Source of the DNA: a virus
IMG/VR virus record: IMGVR_UViG_3300010885_015373
Span: 1 to 21,013 of that record
Length of the DNA: 21,013 nt
Reading direction: 5' to 3' (one strand)
Of the stretch, positions 1,928 to 19,142 are shown piece after piece. A program made the position numbers and the translations under genes. The first letter of the stretch is position 1, and every line of letters begins with the position of its first letter. The notes below the pieces were generated by a model that was not told where the DNA came from, ran no database searches, and saw only the letters and a program-made list of their open reading frames with translations.

Positions 1928-2019
1928 AAAAAAGTTTGTAGAAATAGTTGCATGTTTGTTTGTTTTGGGTTTATGATTTAGGTACAAGGTCAGAGTGACC
2001 AGAACAGAAGGGCAAGAAA
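1928..2019 (+). promoter_or_regulatory. Promoter plus 5' hairpin leader (module copy 1)
   Basis: An A-tract (from about 1928), -35 TTGCAT (1948-1953), an 18-nt spacer starting GTTTGTTTG, and -10 TATGAT (1972-1977) predict a start near 1984. The RNA then begins with hairpin GGTCA-GAG-TGACC (1988-2000), followed by the 19-nt leader AGAACAGAAGGGCAAGAAA and the ATG. The same module occurs before the genes at 12597(-), 14272(-), 14497 and 18933, with different hairpin arms that remain complementary. Confidence 0.8.
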
Positions 2020-2361
2020 ATGACAAACAATAACTACGCACTATACGCACAGTTCACCGTAAACAACTCACAGCGCAACTTGGCTGATTCAATTTGTGTA
2101 CCTTTGCATGATGTTGTTGCAGAAGATTTGTATGAAACGACTGATGCAAAAGTTAGCATTATGGGTAGCCACACAAATGGCGGCTTGCTAGTCAGTTTTG
2201 TATTTGATGCAGCCAGCCATGAAGAAGCCATTGCACTTGCAAACACATGGGCAGAAGAATTAAGTTTCGGATCAATGCGCATGTTCTGGCATGAACAAAC
2301 AGATTTTGGTTCACGGGGCGTAAGAATTCTTGATACAGAAAAAACCAAATTGAACGCATAA
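2020..2361 (+). CDS. Unknown protein in an autonomous cassette
   Basis: The protein is 113 aa with no motif I recognise. It is acidic, with a central segment VSIMGSHTNGGLLVSFVFDA and the helix-like EEAIALANTWAEELSF, suggesting a small alpha/beta fold. There is no signal peptide or membrane segment. The gene has its own promoter and hairpin leader and is fenced by terminators on both sides, so it is transcribed separately from the tail genes around it. This arrangement is that of a moron: a gene added between late genes and usually not needed for virion building. The promoter family it shares with the accessory region suggests early or regulated expression. Confidence 0.8.
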   Translation: MTNNNYALYAQFTVNNSQRNLADSICVPLHDVVAEDLYETTDAKVSIMGSHTNGGLLVSFVFDAASHEEAIALANTWAEELSFGSMRMFWHEQTDFGSRGVRILDTEKTKLNA

Positions 2362-2378
2362 ACTATTCAAACAAACTG

Positions 2379-2402
2379 CCCACCTTACGGGGTGGGTTTT
2401 TT
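2379..2402 (+). terminator. Rho-independent terminator closing the cassette
   Basis: Stem CCCACC (2379-2384) / GGTGGG (2391-2396), 6-nt loop, then six T residues (2397-2402). It lies 17 nt after the stop of the cassette gene. Confidence 0.9.
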
Positions 2403-12282: not shown

Positions 12283-12597
12283 TTAACCAACTTTTTCAAA
12301 GTAAGTTTCAATTTCATTTTTGTAAACAAAATTTTTGATGCAAGTGTTACCAACGCGCACCCACTCACCTTTGCCCTGTGCTTCAACTTCAGCAACTTTA
12401 TTCAATGGCACGATTTCATCACTCTGCCAAACAAAGAAACAACGGTAGGCGGTGTTATCTGCCATACCTTTGCCGCAATGATGACAAGACTGTAAGCCAT
12501 CTTTTTTTGCTTTAGCGTTATTGCGATCCCAATGCACATGTGCGCCCATGCCGCCACAACTAATAAAACCTTCTGATGTGATTGCTGTAATGTTCAT
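12283..12597 (-). CDS. Cys/His-rich small protein, possibly zinc-binding
   Basis: The 104-aa protein begins MNITAITSEGFISCGGMGAHVHWD. The frame is open upstream, but ATG 12597 is the start that follows the shared hairpin leader exactly as in the other copies. Cys14, His20/22, CHHC (38-41), Cys53 and Cys86 suggest a zinc-bound fold (SCHHCGKGM, YRCFFVW, VRVGNTCIKNF). The family is not known to me. It forms a single-gene unit with its own promoter module and ends at the bidirectional terminator. Confidence 0.75.
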   Translation of the reverse strand: MNITAITSEGFISCGGMGAHVHWDRNNAKAKKDGLQSCHHCGKGMADNTAYRCFFVWQSDEIVPLNKVAEVEAQGKGEWVRVGNTCIKNFVYKNEIETYFEKVG

Positions 12598-12690
12598 TTT
12601 CTTGCCCTTCTGTTCTGCGCACTCTGCGCTGTTAGTACCAGCATAAGACCTAACCAAACAAACATGCAACTTATTTACAAAAGTTTTTTT
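12598..12690 (-). promoter_or_regulatory. Promoter plus 5' hairpin leader (module copy 2)
   Basis: Read on the minus strand: A-tract (12683-12690), -35 TTGCAT (12664-12669), 18-nt spacer starting GTTTGTTTGG, -10 TATGCT (12640-12645), and a start near 12633. The hairpin GCGCA-GAG-TGCGC spans 12617-12629. The 19-nt leader AGAACAGAAGGGCAAGAAA is identical to copy 1, while the hairpin arms are different. Confidence 0.8.
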
Positions 12691-13395: not shown

Positions 13396-13580
13396 AGTTG
13401 TTTCGCTTTCATAAACATAAATGTTTCAGGATGTTCTAACGCCATCTGGTTATAGATAGGTGTGTCCATGTCATCTGTTGGTTTGAATTGGTCTGCTTCA
13501 TTGTAACCAGCATAATGACCAGCACGGTATGAGATCACAATGATGGGTAGCAGTGACAGTAGTAAAAAGACACTAAGCAT
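13392..13580 (-). CDS. Single-span membrane protein
   Basis: The protein is 62 aa starting at ATG 13580, chosen because AAAGGA lies at the right distance; longer upstream starts would run deep into the WhiB gene. Residues 1-17 (MLSVFLLLSLLPIIVIS) form a membrane segment, followed by YRAGHYAGYNEAD and a polar, Met-containing cytoplasmic or external tail. No homolog is recognised. It overlaps the WhiB gene by 8 nt and the next gene by 4 nt. Confidence 0.65.
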   Translation of the reverse strand: MLSVFLLLSLLPIIVISYRAGHYAGYNEADQFKPTDDMDTPIYNQMALEHPETFMFMKAKQL

Positions 13581-13929
13581 TTTGGCGATTCCTTTTCTGT
13601 GTTTCTGCAGACTTTGCTGCACGGATTTTTCTTTTATGTTTGGCTTCATCTGTTTGACTCATAAACACTTCATGTATTGGGTAAATTGGTGTGGCTTTGA
13701 TTCCGCGTTTGGCACGGATCACGCGCCTATCTTGTGCTGTTGTGCCAGCCCAGATGCCATCTACTTTTACATTTAGTGAATACTCTAAACATGATTTGAA
13801 GATGGGGCAGTTGGCGCAAACTTTGTAGATCATTTGTTTTTGTTTTTCTTCTTGTTCGCGTGAGTCTGGAAAAAATAAATCTACTGGTAGTTCTGCGCAG
13901 GCGGCTTCTGTGAAGTCGGGGCATTTCAT
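13573..13929 (-). CDS. WhiB-like transcription factor (first copy)
   Basis: The protein is 118 aa. Four Cys in WhiB spacing (C11, C38, C41, C47; the last three as CANCPIFKSC) should hold a [4Fe-4S] cluster. The turn GIWAGTT (58-64) stands for the usual G[VI]WGG, with Ala replacing one Gly. A basic tail (RRVIRAKRG, then KHKRKIRAAKSAETQKRNRQ) should bind DNA and is longer than in minimal WhiB proteins. Host WhiB proteins act with the major sigma factor, and a mycobacteriophage WhiB (TM4) is known to interfere with host WhiB2. The role here may be similar (inference). The ATG overlaps the preceding stop by 4 nt. Confidence 0.9.
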   Translation of the reverse strand: MKCPDFTEAACAELPVDLFFPDSREQEEKQKQMIYKVCANCPIFKSCLEYSLNVKVDGIWAGTTAQDRRVIRAKRGIKATPIYPIHEVFMSQTDEAKHKRKIRAAKSAETQKRNRQNA

Positions 13930-14162: not shown

Positions 14163-14272
14163 TACTCACCTGCCTGTTCTTTGGTTTCATTTTCTTTGGC
14201 TTCGTTTTCTCTGGCTTCAATTACAGCCTTTGCCCACGCTTCTACACCTGCGGCTAATGTTTGTTCATTCAT
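14162..14272 (-). CDS. 36-aa first gene of the minus-strand operon
   Basis: ATG 14272 follows the shared hairpin leader (ACAGAAGGGCAAGAAA) and opens a 36-codon frame (MNEQTLAAGVEAWAKAVIEA, then RENEAKENETKEQAGE). It is very acidic and helical, with Lys-Glu alternation. The TAA overlaps the next ATG by one base. Its position directly behind the promoter leader makes translation likely, despite its small size. Confidence 0.7.
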   Translation of the reverse strand: MNEQTLAAGVEAWAKAVIEARENEAKENETKEQAGE

Positions 14273-14350
14273 TTTCTTGCCCTTCTGTTTTCTCGTACCA
14301 CTCTGGCACTAAACAAACCTTACACGAAACAAACAAAGTTACAAGTTATT
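14273..14350 (-). promoter_or_regulatory. Promoter plus 5' hairpin leader (module copy 3)
   Basis: On the minus strand: -35 TTGTAA (14339-14344), spacer with TTTGTTTGTTT, and -10 TAAGGT (14317-14322, 16-nt spacing). A hairpin GTGCCA-GAG-TGGTAC (14295-14309, 6 bp with one G-U) starts about at the predicted RNA 5' end. It is followed by GAGAAAACAGAAGGGCAAGAAA (split at 14273-14294, 22 nt) before the ATG. This is the most divergent of the five copies and drives the seven-gene operon down to 12698. Confidence 0.7.
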
Positions 14351-14404: not shown

Positions 14405-14496
14405 AAGTTTTTTTCTAAACAAGTTGCATGTTTGTTTTGTTTGTGTGCTAGTCTTGTCTTAACAGTCCAGGGTGGGCAGAACAGAAAGGCAAGACA
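14405..14496 (+). promoter_or_regulatory. Promoter plus 5' hairpin leader (module copy 4)
   Basis: -35 TTGCAT (14424-14429), 19-nt spacer starting GTTTGTTTTG, -10 TAGTCT (14449-14454), start near 14461. Hairpin GTCCA-GGG-TGGGC (14465-14477) has one U-G pair. The leader AGAACAGAAAGGCAAGACA (14478-14496) leads directly to ATG 14497. A T-rich tract replaces the A-tract upstream. Confidence 0.78.
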
Positions 14497-14805
14497 ATGA
14501 CAACAACACTAGACATTTCAGCAACAGACACCGCAAAGATGGTACGCAAAGCAATCAAGACCGCATACCCAACTGCAAAGATTTCTGTAGTTACAGATAA
14601 GTATTCAATGGGTGCTGCAATCAATGTCACCATCCTTACCGAAATGACAAACGAACAGGTTGCAGATGTAACCGACATTGCACGCCAGTTTGAAGGCGCA
14701 ACATTTGATGGCACGATTGATCTTAAAGAATACAAAGTATCTGTGCTTGATGGTCAAGATGTTCGTTTTGGTGCAGATTTTATTTTCACACACAAGGGGT
14801 GGTAA
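14497..14805 (+). CDS. LPD29-domain protein
   Basis: The protein is 102 aa. It has the pattern of the LPD29 domain (large polyvalent protein associated domain 29): DTAKMVRKAIKTAYPTAKISV, then YSMGAAINVTI, VADVTDIARQFEGATFDG and ADFIFTHKGW at the end. The spaced helix, the central strand and 'FEGA.FDG.ID' are diagnostic by eye. LPD29 proteins occur alone and inside large polyvalent proteins of mobile elements; their function is not known. It is the first gene of the rightward region, behind promoter module copy 4. Confidence 0.8.
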   Translation: MTTTLDISATDTAKMVRKAIKTAYPTAKISVVTDKYSMGAAINVTILTEMTNEQVADVTDIARQFEGATFDGTIDLKEYKVSVLDGQDVRFGADFIFTHKGW

Positions 14806-17608: not shown

Positions 17609-17905
17609 GTGACTGGACACCTGCCAAAGATTGCATCACCAAATTTGCCTAACGCTTTGTGTGCCGATAATCGGGTGAACCCTGAATTGTTTTTCGCGGA
17701 TGATTGCCAGCAACCTGATAAGGCTGTGGTGGAACAGGCTAGGGCGATTTGTATTCAATGCCCTGTTCGTGTGCCGTGCCTGCAGTGGGCGTTACAGAAT
17801 GAAAACTTTGGCATGTGGGGTGGACTCACTGCGAATGAACGCAGAGATTTTAAGCGCAGAAAATTGCGCAGACTAAAACATTTAGAAGAATTTGATTTGA
17901 TTTAG
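17609..17905 (+). CDS. WhiB-like transcription factor (second copy)
   Basis: The protein is 98 aa with the full WhiB signature: C18, C48, C51, C57 (spacing x29, x2, x5), the turn GMWGGLT (68-74) and a basic C-terminal helix RRDFKRRKLRRLKH. It is closer to the standard pattern than the copy on the minus strand. The start is GTG 17609; there is no ribosome site upstream. It may redirect host WhiB-sigma factor complexes or control phage promoters. Confidence 0.9.
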   Translation: MTGHLPKIASPNLPNALCADNRVNPELFFADDCQQPDKAVVEQARAICIQCPVRVPCLQWALQNENFGMWGGLTANERRDFKRRKLRRLKHLEEFDLI

Positions 17906-18342: not shown

Positions 18343-18370
18343 CGGCACATAACTTAATAACCAGTTTTTT

Positions 18371-18533
18371 GTTTGGTCTGATTAAAACTAAACCCGTGAG
18401 ATGTATAAGCCCTAGTGAGATCGGCACAATAGGCAACCAGTTAAATGGTTTACCACCTAGCGTAAGTTTGTTAGGTGTGGGGTATGGAACGCCCATAGCA
18501 TCATAAGAGTAGTGGGCAGTCTTATTAGTATGG
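18371..18533 (+). ncRNA. Candidate structured RNA with pseudoknot in a 222-nt non-coding gap
   Basis: The gap 18343-18564 holds no convincing gene. Possible pairings by eye: P1 GTTTGGT (18371-18377) / ACTAAAC (18387-18393); P2 CCTAGTG (18411-18417) with CAC (18425-18427) and TAGG (18430-18433); P3 AACCA (18435-18439) / TGGTT (18446-18450); P4 CACCTA (18454-18459) / TAGGTG (18472-18477); then GCCCA (18491-18495) / TGGGC (18513-18517) interleaved with ATAAGA (18503-18508) / TCTTAT (18520-18525), an H-type pseudoknot or two exclusive hairpins. The gap ends at the ribosome site GGGGG of the next gene, so it may be a riboregulator of that gene or a separate RNA. No known RNA family is recognised, and no energy calculation was made. 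Confidence 0.5.
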
Positions 18534-18564
18534 CTGTTGAATTCTGGCGAACCTTTGGGGGACT

Positions 18565-18837
18565 ATGAGCAAGCATAAGATTAAGAAGTTACTACTAGAT
18601 GATCTTAAGAAGTCTGGTTACTGTCGCAGTGTGTGGTCTGGTAAGTGTGTGTTGTGTAGTTTTGAAATCAAACACCGTGACCTAATTGTTAAACCTGTTG
18701 GTGATGTTTTGCCGTCTAGGTGGTATCACGCTAAATGTCTTGAAGCCTGGTTGAAGGTTGAAGGTAATCGCAGGGCTGCGGTTGGGCGTGTCGCTGGTGG
18801 TAGGCGTAAAACCCTTGCAAATAAAAGAAAAAAATAG
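18565..18837 (+). CDS. Basic zinc-finger protein
   Basis: The protein is 90 aa. CVLC (about 28-31), then a His-x-x-Cys (RWYHAKCLEAW) gives a C2HC site with the look of a PARP-type zinc finger. N-terminus (SKHKIKKLLLDDLKKSG) and C-terminus (GRVAGGRRKTLANKRKK) are strongly basic, so nucleic acid binding is likely. It starts at ATG 18565 behind GGGGG with 3-nt spacing, directly after the candidate structured RNA. Downstream is a new promoter, so this may be the last gene of its transcript. Confidence 0.7.
   Translation: MSKHKIKKLLLDDLKKSGYCRSVWSGKCVLCSFEIKHRDLIVKPVGDVLPSRWYHAKCLEAWLKVEGNRRAAVGRVAGGRRKTLANKRKK
18812..18828. promoter_or_regulatory. 17-bp repeat, candidate operator (copy 4)
   Basis: The reverse complement reads TCTTTTATTTGCAAGGG, 15 of 17 positions like the consensus. 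It lies inside the end of the zinc-finger gene and 33 nt before the -35 at 18862. GGCGTGTCGC, seen beside two other copies, is at 18785-18794. Confidence 0.45.
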
Positions 18838-18840
18838 TTT

Positions 18841-18932
18841 AAAAAAAGTTTGTCAAAACACTTGCATGTTTGTTTGTTTCTGACTTACAATTGAACTACA
18901 GCGCAGGGTGCGCCAAACAGAAAGGCAAGAAG
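18841..18932 (+). promoter_or_regulatory. Promoter plus 5' hairpin leader (module copy 5)
   Basis: A-tract (18841-18847), -35 TTGCAT (18862-18867), 18-nt spacer GTTTGTTTGTTTCTGACT, -10 TACAAT (18886-18891), start near 18898. Hairpin GCGCA-GGG-TGCGC (18901-18913), then CAAACAGAAAGGCAAGAAG (18914-18932) and ATG 18933. It has the best -10 of the five copies. Confidence 0.82.
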
Positions 18933-19142
18933 ATGTATAAAGTAAGCAAAGCCCGACAGACCAAAACATTAGTTGTTATTTGTGATGGTGAAAATGATGC
19001 ACCATTTATGTTGGTTTGCGATAAGCACAATTTAACTTTAGATTGCGAAACTATTACACAGGCAAAACTATTTGCTTCTTCACCTATTGACTGGTGCGAA
19101 GATTGCGCTACAGAATACTTTGCAAACAAGGCTGGTGCGTAA
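18933..19142 (+). CDS. Small zinc-binding protein
   Basis: The protein is 69 aa from ATG 18933, chosen because it follows the hairpin leader; the frame is open upstream. VCDKHNLTLDC and WCEDCATEYF give four Cys plus one His, similar to actinophage small proteins of the pattern 'C..H ... A..F....P..WC..C'. It is the first gene of a five-gene chain of tiny genes coupled by overlaps. Confidence 0.72.
   Translation: MYKVSKARQTKTLVVICDGENDAPFMLVCDKHNLTLDCETITQAKLFASSPIDWCEDCATEYFANKAGA

Follow-up and report, generated by a model that had tools for sequence, protein, structure and literature searches.

Why are several transcription units of a single phage genome all predicted to begin with a small hairpin that is never quite the same in sequence? 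The question is raised by a stretch of 21,013 bases (43.5% GC), referred to here as the window, which comprises a whole IMG/VR record classed as linear and which protein family searches of its open reading frames identify as part of a tailed phage genome. Among its genes are those for tape measure and minor tail proteins, a single-strand-annealing protein, a PD-(D/E)XK exonuclease, a RusA-like resolvase and two different WhiB-like proteins (13573–13929, minus strand, and 17609–17905, plus strand), two such genes also being present in each of the relatives G001, G002, G004 and L214. WhiB is regarded as a marker of actinophages (PMC10202952) and the host is therefore likely to be an actinobacterium, whilst the low GC content, the WhiB genes and the company of known freshwater actinophages suggest a freshwater origin. 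In isolated phages (of Mycobacterium, Streptomyces and Propionibacterium), only distant homologues of the single-strand-annealing protein and exonuclease were found.

Five promoter-linked hairpins in the window

The original prediction, made from the DNA letters, described five hairpins, each close to the predicted 5' end of an RNA, and its coordinates, strands and arms all proved correct. The first, GGUCA-GAG-UGACC (1988–2000, plus strand), lies downstream of a promoter of the form TTGCAT-18 nt-TATGAT (1948–1977, plus strand); the predicted RNA 5' end is A1984, leaving four unpaired nucleotides before the stem, and a leader with an SD-like AGAAGGG (2001–2019, plus strand) covers the 19 nt to the ATG at 2020. 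On the minus strand, the promoter TTGCAT-18 nt-TATGCT (12640–12669) precedes GCGCA-GAG-UGCGC (12617–12629), 19 nt before the ATG at 12597, and TTGTAA-16 nt-TAAGGT (14317–14344) precedes GUGCCA-GAG-UGGUAC (14295–14309), 22 nt before the ATG at 14272, at the head of a leftward operon containing a WhiB gene. The fourth promoter, TTGCAT-19 nt-TAGTCT (14424–14454, plus strand), is followed by GUCCA-GGG-UGGGC (14465–14477, plus strand), 19 nt before the ATG of an LPD29-domain gene (14497–14805, plus strand; PF18847, E 2e-12), and the fifth, TTGCAT-18 nt-TACAAT (18862–18891, plus strand), by GCGCA-GGG-UGCGC (18901–18913, plus strand), 19 nt before the ATG at 18933. Distances of 19, 19, 22, 19 and 19 nt from hairpin to start codon are thus as predicted, as are the identical leaders of copies 1 and 2 and the presence of G-U pairs in two copies, one G-U pair in that at 14309 (minus strand) and one U-G pair in that at 14465 (plus strand).

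All five hairpins start 7–10 nt 3' of a sigma-70-type promoter (TTGCAT-N18-TATGAT): in four of the five TTGCAT is combined with TANNNT at a spacing of 18 or 19 nt, with TTGTAA-N16-TAAGGT in the fifth. The pattern NNNNA-GRG-UNNNN with four standard pairs occurs six times on the two strands of the window; 100 dinucleotide shuffles gave 1.4 on average, one of them also reaching six. Five of the six matches in the window are exactly the promoter-linked copies, and the other, at 1736, is within a gene. No Rfam covariance model matched the window at its gathering score.

Two further features of the window deserve mention. The 18-nt spacers of promoters 1, 2 and 5 (1954–1971, 12646–12663 and 18868–18885) open with a near-constant GTTTGTTTG (full promoter pattern TTGCATGTTTGTTTG); this T/G-rich spacer is unusual and is common to most promoters of the window family. 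An exact scan of viral contigs with TTGCATGTTTGTTTG gave 119 matches, almost all due to chance, the real ones being confined to relatives of the window, and was set aside. Separately, a 222-nt segment without an open reading frame (18343–18564), just upstream of a 90 amino acid gene at 18565, is conserved in G001 (96% identity) and G002 (88%) and folds strongly (–58 kcal/mol); a credible Rfam match was not found, and the segment is a possible structured non-coding RNA.

Unit 1 is a mobile cassette

The first unit consists of promoter, hairpin, a gene for a 113 amino acid protein (2020–2361, plus strand) with no Pfam or PHROGs match, and a terminator-like hairpin, CCCACC-UUACGG-GGUGGG-UUUUUU (2379–2402, plus strand), that closes the cassette, the whole lying between two tail genes. 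In G001 the same two neighbouring genes flank an empty site (L207:5496-5590) that lacks promoter, hairpin, gene and terminator, whilst the gene occupying this site in G004 is another one, accompanied by a promoter, hairpin and terminator-like repeat of similar type. Having its own promoter and terminator and being absent from the same place in a relative, unit 1 has the attributes of a moron. Between the tail genes lies a GC-rich inverted repeat, GGCGCAGGG...CCCTGCGCC (1860–1905), which is kept in the empty site of G001 and seems to mark the point at which the cassette landed.

Pairing is kept in relatives while sequence changes

Syntenic relatives of the window (G001, 3300010157_000018; 3300028392_000412; G002, 3300032236_000917; L202; G004, 3300032246_001121; and L214), with protein identities of ~50–98% for most shared genes, add at least 20 further copies of the hairpin, some of the contigs overlapping; these were found partly by leader pattern and partly in a search of related phage contigs with a covariance model built from 11 copies. 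They redefine the element. A GAG or GGG loop closed by an A-U pair, as originally proposed, describes every copy in the window and does not extend to the relatives, where loops such as AGAGA, AGAGC, AGAGG, ACAGG, GCAGG and AGCGU occur and the A-U pair is no general rule. Given this variation, the constant part is a four base pair GNNC/GNNC stem with a pentaloop, mostly AGRGN, the closing C-G pair being invariant within the window family and the stem being extended to 5–6 bp at the position of copy 3.

Changes at corresponding places are instructive. In place of copy 3, GUGCC/GGUAC in the window and G001, there is GUACC-AGAGA-GGUAC in G004 and CGCACC-AGCGU-GGUGCG in G002 and L202; in place of copy 5, GCGC/GCGC in the window, there is GGGC/GCCU in G002 and GGUC/GACC in G004. 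The LPD29 leader of the window has the arms GUCC/GGGC and orthologues have GCCC-AGGGU-GGGC and GCAC-GCAGG-GUGC. An alignment of 11 copies has 94.5% of its cells paired and gives a covariation score of 0.524, compared with 0.02–0.06 when the partners are slid. Nine different 5' arms are found among 16 distinct hairpins of the window family, so there is no fixed inverted repeat: no single palindrome is kept in related phages, even at syntenic positions and in front of LPD29 orthologues found by protein alone, and differing arms and loops are accompanied by complete pairing. The proposal of an RNA element with covarying arms therefore stands.

The surroundings of the hairpin are kept too. In relatives, those AT-rich intergenic promoters of the same type that were identified have a hairpin beginning 6–10 nt from the –10 box, and across the window family the start codon lies 19–23 nt past the hairpin (two copies with an ambiguous GTG start have an ATG at 20 nt). 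An A is commonly found 7 nt past the –10 box; if this is the start, as promoter spacing predicts, 0–4 unpaired nucleotides precede the stem in nearly all copies. This linkage to promoters is stated for sigma-70-like units, late-gene promoters falling outside it. The genes headed by the hairpins mostly have no similarity to each other.

With covariance model R1, hairpins 1 and 2, both training sequences, scored 49.8 and 54.7 bits, and with hairpin 3 held out the model found its leader region (E 9e-4) with the hairpin out of register. R1 E-values in other phage groups were rejected as evidence for the hairpin because it is the constant leader that drives the score, and L008 and L037 score too. 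A scan for the leader itself, ACAGAANGGCAAGANNATG, gave 79 matches, many within genes, and these served only as a set picked blind to hairpins. When bacterial genomes were scanned for a pattern combining core and leader, seven matches appeared, all due to chance and none in Actinobacteria.

A sister family with unrelated stems and loops

Nine of these blindly picked leader matches fall in a sister family of contigs (G005–G012 and G016; WhiB found in G005, G006 and G010) whose tail proteins are 38–63% identical to those of the window, and a hairpin is present at the corresponding position in each of the nine. These include GGUUCA-AAAGAA-UGAACC, GGUUCG-AGAGAA-CGAACC, GAUCCG-AGAGAA-CGGAUC, GGGCU-GGUU-AGCCC and variants; further units on sister contigs carry GGGC-AAACA-GCCC, GGGC-AACAA-GCCC, GGGAG-AACCG-CUCCC and GGGGG-AAACG-CCCCC, and a unit in G031 has GGUUCC-AGAGAA-GGAACC. 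Stems and loops are unrelated to those of the window family, and the distance from hairpin to start codon is 18–22 nt. It is GGGC-AAACA-GCCC that heads the sister-family LPD29 orthologue (46% identity).

Pooling 26 distinct hairpins from the two WhiB-bearing groups (16 from the window family, 10 from the sister family), all 104 of 104 inner stem cells are paired, compared with 47.5 on average, and at most 69, when the 3' arms were re-dealt 20,000 times, a count that is inflated by partial selection of the set for hairpins and whose members, being related by descent, are not independent events. More weight therefore attaches to the LPD29 orthologues, which were chosen by protein alone.

Orthologues of the LPD29 gene

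Searching IMG/VR with LPD29 proteins alone gave 80 loci with 52 distinct leaders, 41 of which have a recognisable promoter of their own. We counted hairpins of the minimum-energy fold that begin at most 5 nt from the predicted start and end 16–24 nt before the start codon. Such a hairpin is present in 27 of the 41 leaders (shuffle mean 2.7, maximum 7) and, when only cluster representatives are considered, in 12 of 22 (mean 1.4, maximum 5). The positives include a third group with GCCCU...GGGGU stems (GCCGC...GCGGU in L282). No WhiB gene was found in the third-group contigs tested and so these are probably phages of other, non-actinobacterial hosts; an LPD29 orthologue is present in an Aphanizomenon phage and none was found in isolated actinophages. 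Directly 3' of the 5' hairpin, third-group leaders (L326, L313, L279 and others) have CUUUU, resembling a weak intrinsic terminator, and an arrangement of this kind where the LPD29 mRNA begins might serve for attenuation. Also among the positives is a WhiB-bearing phage, G028, with the hairpins GUAGCC-AACCGAA-GGCUAC and GUAAGCCC...GGGAUUAC at the first base.

Looking beyond LPD29 to promoter-led units of any gene, the hairpin is present in 17 of 25 in these groups versus 3 of 35 at other phage loci (Fisher p 2e-6). A stricter scan found 15 matches in 1.9 Mb, most of them in these groups, versus one in reversed sequence, and no promoter-hairpin units turned up in Streptomyces phage Salutena, scanned as a control. 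One pattern match on an unrelated contig (L219, 11120–11160) has a TGACAC-AAA-GTGTCA hairpin with an SD-like leader just after it.

Folding of the leaders

In predicted folds the hairpin forms with a probability of 0.74–1.0 in 20 of 21 leaders, a different fold being favoured in the remaining copy (G2_8652). Downstream lies an open purine-rich leader with an SD-like AGAAAGG or AGAAGGG, the SD region being 62–96% unpaired across the 21 predicted leaders and the accessibility of the start codon ranging from 0.02 to 0.93. Hairpin energies are modest (–3.5 to –8.8 kcal/mol) and, compared with shuffles, single-sequence folding finds the leaders unexceptional (mean z about –1). The evidence for the element is covariation and fixed position, rather than folding energy.

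What might the hairpin do?

That the element is an RNA structure is well supported by comparison of the sequences, which establishes its linkage to promoters, its pairing despite sequence change and its fixed spacing. Where the RNA starts, and any role in decay or translation, we infer from these properties. Three functions had been put forward for the hairpin: protection of mRNA ends, binding of a phage protein and tuning of translation. We favour end protection together with insulation of the ribosome site and consider, on balance, that the element is probably a 5'-terminal, sequence-independent stem-loop of the ompA kind serving these two ends. Arms and loops change freely and only pairing and position are constant, so that the action of the hairpin most likely depends on its shape.

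Transcription would begin 6–7 nt past the –10 box, giving an RNA that opens with 0–5 unpaired bases and that would fold, as soon as it emerges, into a hairpin of 4–7 bp. A purine-rich and mostly unpaired leader with its Shine-Dalgarno site would follow, the start codon usually lying 19 nt past the hairpin. Folded in this way, the hairpin would hide the 5' end from an RppH-like pyrophosphohydrolase, from 5'-sensing RNase E and from the 5' exonuclease RNase J, as does the 5' stem-loop of ompA mRNA in E. coli, and would prevent the ribosome site from being paired with sequence upstream of it. The footprint of an initiating ribosome reaches roughly 19 nt upstream, and hairpin and ribosome would thus between them cover the whole leader. 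Structures at the 5' end stabilise mRNA because RppH and the 5'-dependent RNase E route require single-stranded 5' ends, stabilising 5' stem-loops are known from E. coli and Bacillus, and M. smegmatis possesses both RNase E and RNase J (PMC3997798). Two properties sit less easily with protection by shape: four unpaired 5' bases, the commonest predicted number, may allow only partial protection, and the partly conserved AGRGN loop and invariant C-G pair of the window family exceed what shape alone needs, something that shared ancestry could explain.

Preservation of the structure while both stem and loop change argues against a DNA operator and against general loop-specific binding. In the former, the dyads would be where a dimeric repressor binds, a little past the transcription start; they do overlap the initial transcribed region in a set of similar promoters, and fixed dyads occur in Microbacterium cluster EG and mycobacteriophage cluster O phages (PMC7302621, PMC4351075). 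Half-sites differ within one genome, however (GGUC, GCGC, GUCC and GUGCC in the window; GGGAG, GGGGG and GGGCU in G010), the arms co-vary and the G-U pairs break DNA symmetry, making an operator extremely improbable. Binding by a phage-encoded or hijacked host protein that reads hairpin and loop, and so controls translation or decay of a regulon in the manner of the coat-protein and RegA operators, has more in its favour: members of the window family have a partly conserved loop, an invariant closing C-G pair and near-constant spacing, and the hairpin is common to genes without sequence similarity. We nevertheless judge it unlikely, as the sister and third groups keep the position with unrelated loops (AAACA, AACAA, GGUU, AACCG, CGUU), even at LPD29, and no candidate binder was identified.

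A role in transcription, with the hairpin acting in the first 20 nt on promoter escape or on modification of RNA polymerase, as in antitermination by put or boxB, would suit the strict coupling to promoters, the constant location at the predicted transcript start and the short hairpins followed by CUUUU in the third group. It does not predict a constant distance to the start codon, put and boxB require conserved sequences, and unit 1, a single gene closed by a terminator-like hairpin of its own, argues against read-through as the purpose; we regard this role as distinctly unlikely. Finally, promoter, hairpin and leader might simply have been copied together as an inherited cassette in which the dyad is incidental and the hairpin has no selected function. 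Promoter and leader are alike between copies and unit 1 is mobile, with an empty site in a relative, yet both arms have changed repeatedly without loss of pairing, and in other phage groups hairpins of unrelated sequence occupy the same position. Already disfavoured, this explanation is highly improbable.

A broader proposal can be ventured, tentatively and with considerable doubt: that the hairpin is an RNA cap, a standardised structural 5' end for early mRNAs, interchangeable in sequence and moving with promoter cassettes, which arose or was kept in several unrelated phage groups and lets viral messages outlive or out-compete those of the host, possibly in the face of host RNases that depend on the 5' end. 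A sequence-free 5' shield on most recognised early-type units would reveal message protection in phages of abundant freshwater bacteria. It would also supply a rule by which the transcription starts of uncultured phages could be located, and naturally occurring parts with which to stabilise the mRNA of actinobacteria. We found no description of a promoter-linked 5' hairpin of this kind in phages in the open-access literature.

Comparison with known systems

Small hairpins are familiar from the early leaders of lambdoid phages, where boxB (which has a pentaloop) and put have conserved sequences bound by N or by polymerase. Unlike these, the present hairpins differ in arms and loops between groups and at orthologous genes. 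Phage morons carry their own promoter and terminator and are usually defined without a standard 5' hairpin; unit 1, inserted between tail genes with its own promoter and terminator-like hairpin, is moron-like, with the 5' hairpin as an extra part.

Start-associated repeats of actinophages have been listed for more than 10 years and lack an agreed function; the present element is an RNA structure with strong covariation and a testable geometry. Like it, the SAS and ESAS sequences of cluster K phages and of cluster EF Microbacterium phages are repeated before non-structural genes (PMC3203893, PMC7302621), and ESAS also includes inverted repeats. The analogy with cluster K drawn in the original prediction holds for the position before start codons and fails for sequence and RNA pairing, since SAS is a fixed 13-bp asymmetric ribosome-site sequence, 3–7 bp from the start, and the ESAS inverted repeats are reported as not supporting RNA pairing (PMC3203893). 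Unlike SAS, the present element stops 18–23 nt short of the start, and its sequence varies with pairing kept. In Microbacterium cluster EG phages, 18-bp inverted repeats likewise lie upstream of start codons, at 14–22 bp, but have one fixed sequence, GATCAACCNNGGTTGATC, in all copies and, in the portion of the report available, are described without a promoter link (PMC7302621); the hairpins analysed here vary and are promoter-linked, and do not have the same inverted repeat in every copy, as the fixed palindromes of cluster EG and of cluster O do.

Further close parallels are the 5' hairpins of ompA and papA in E. coli and those of Bacillus, which likewise lie near the 5' end of the RNA (a predicted end in the present case) and upstream of an open ribosome site. 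As in ompA-type stem-loops, structure matters rather than sequence, pairing being conserved here, and in predicted folds the ribosome site downstream of the hairpin stays single-stranded. The known cases are single mRNAs, whereas in these phages the hairpin recurs, linked to promoters, on most of the early-type units recognised, and its distance to the start codon is fixed.
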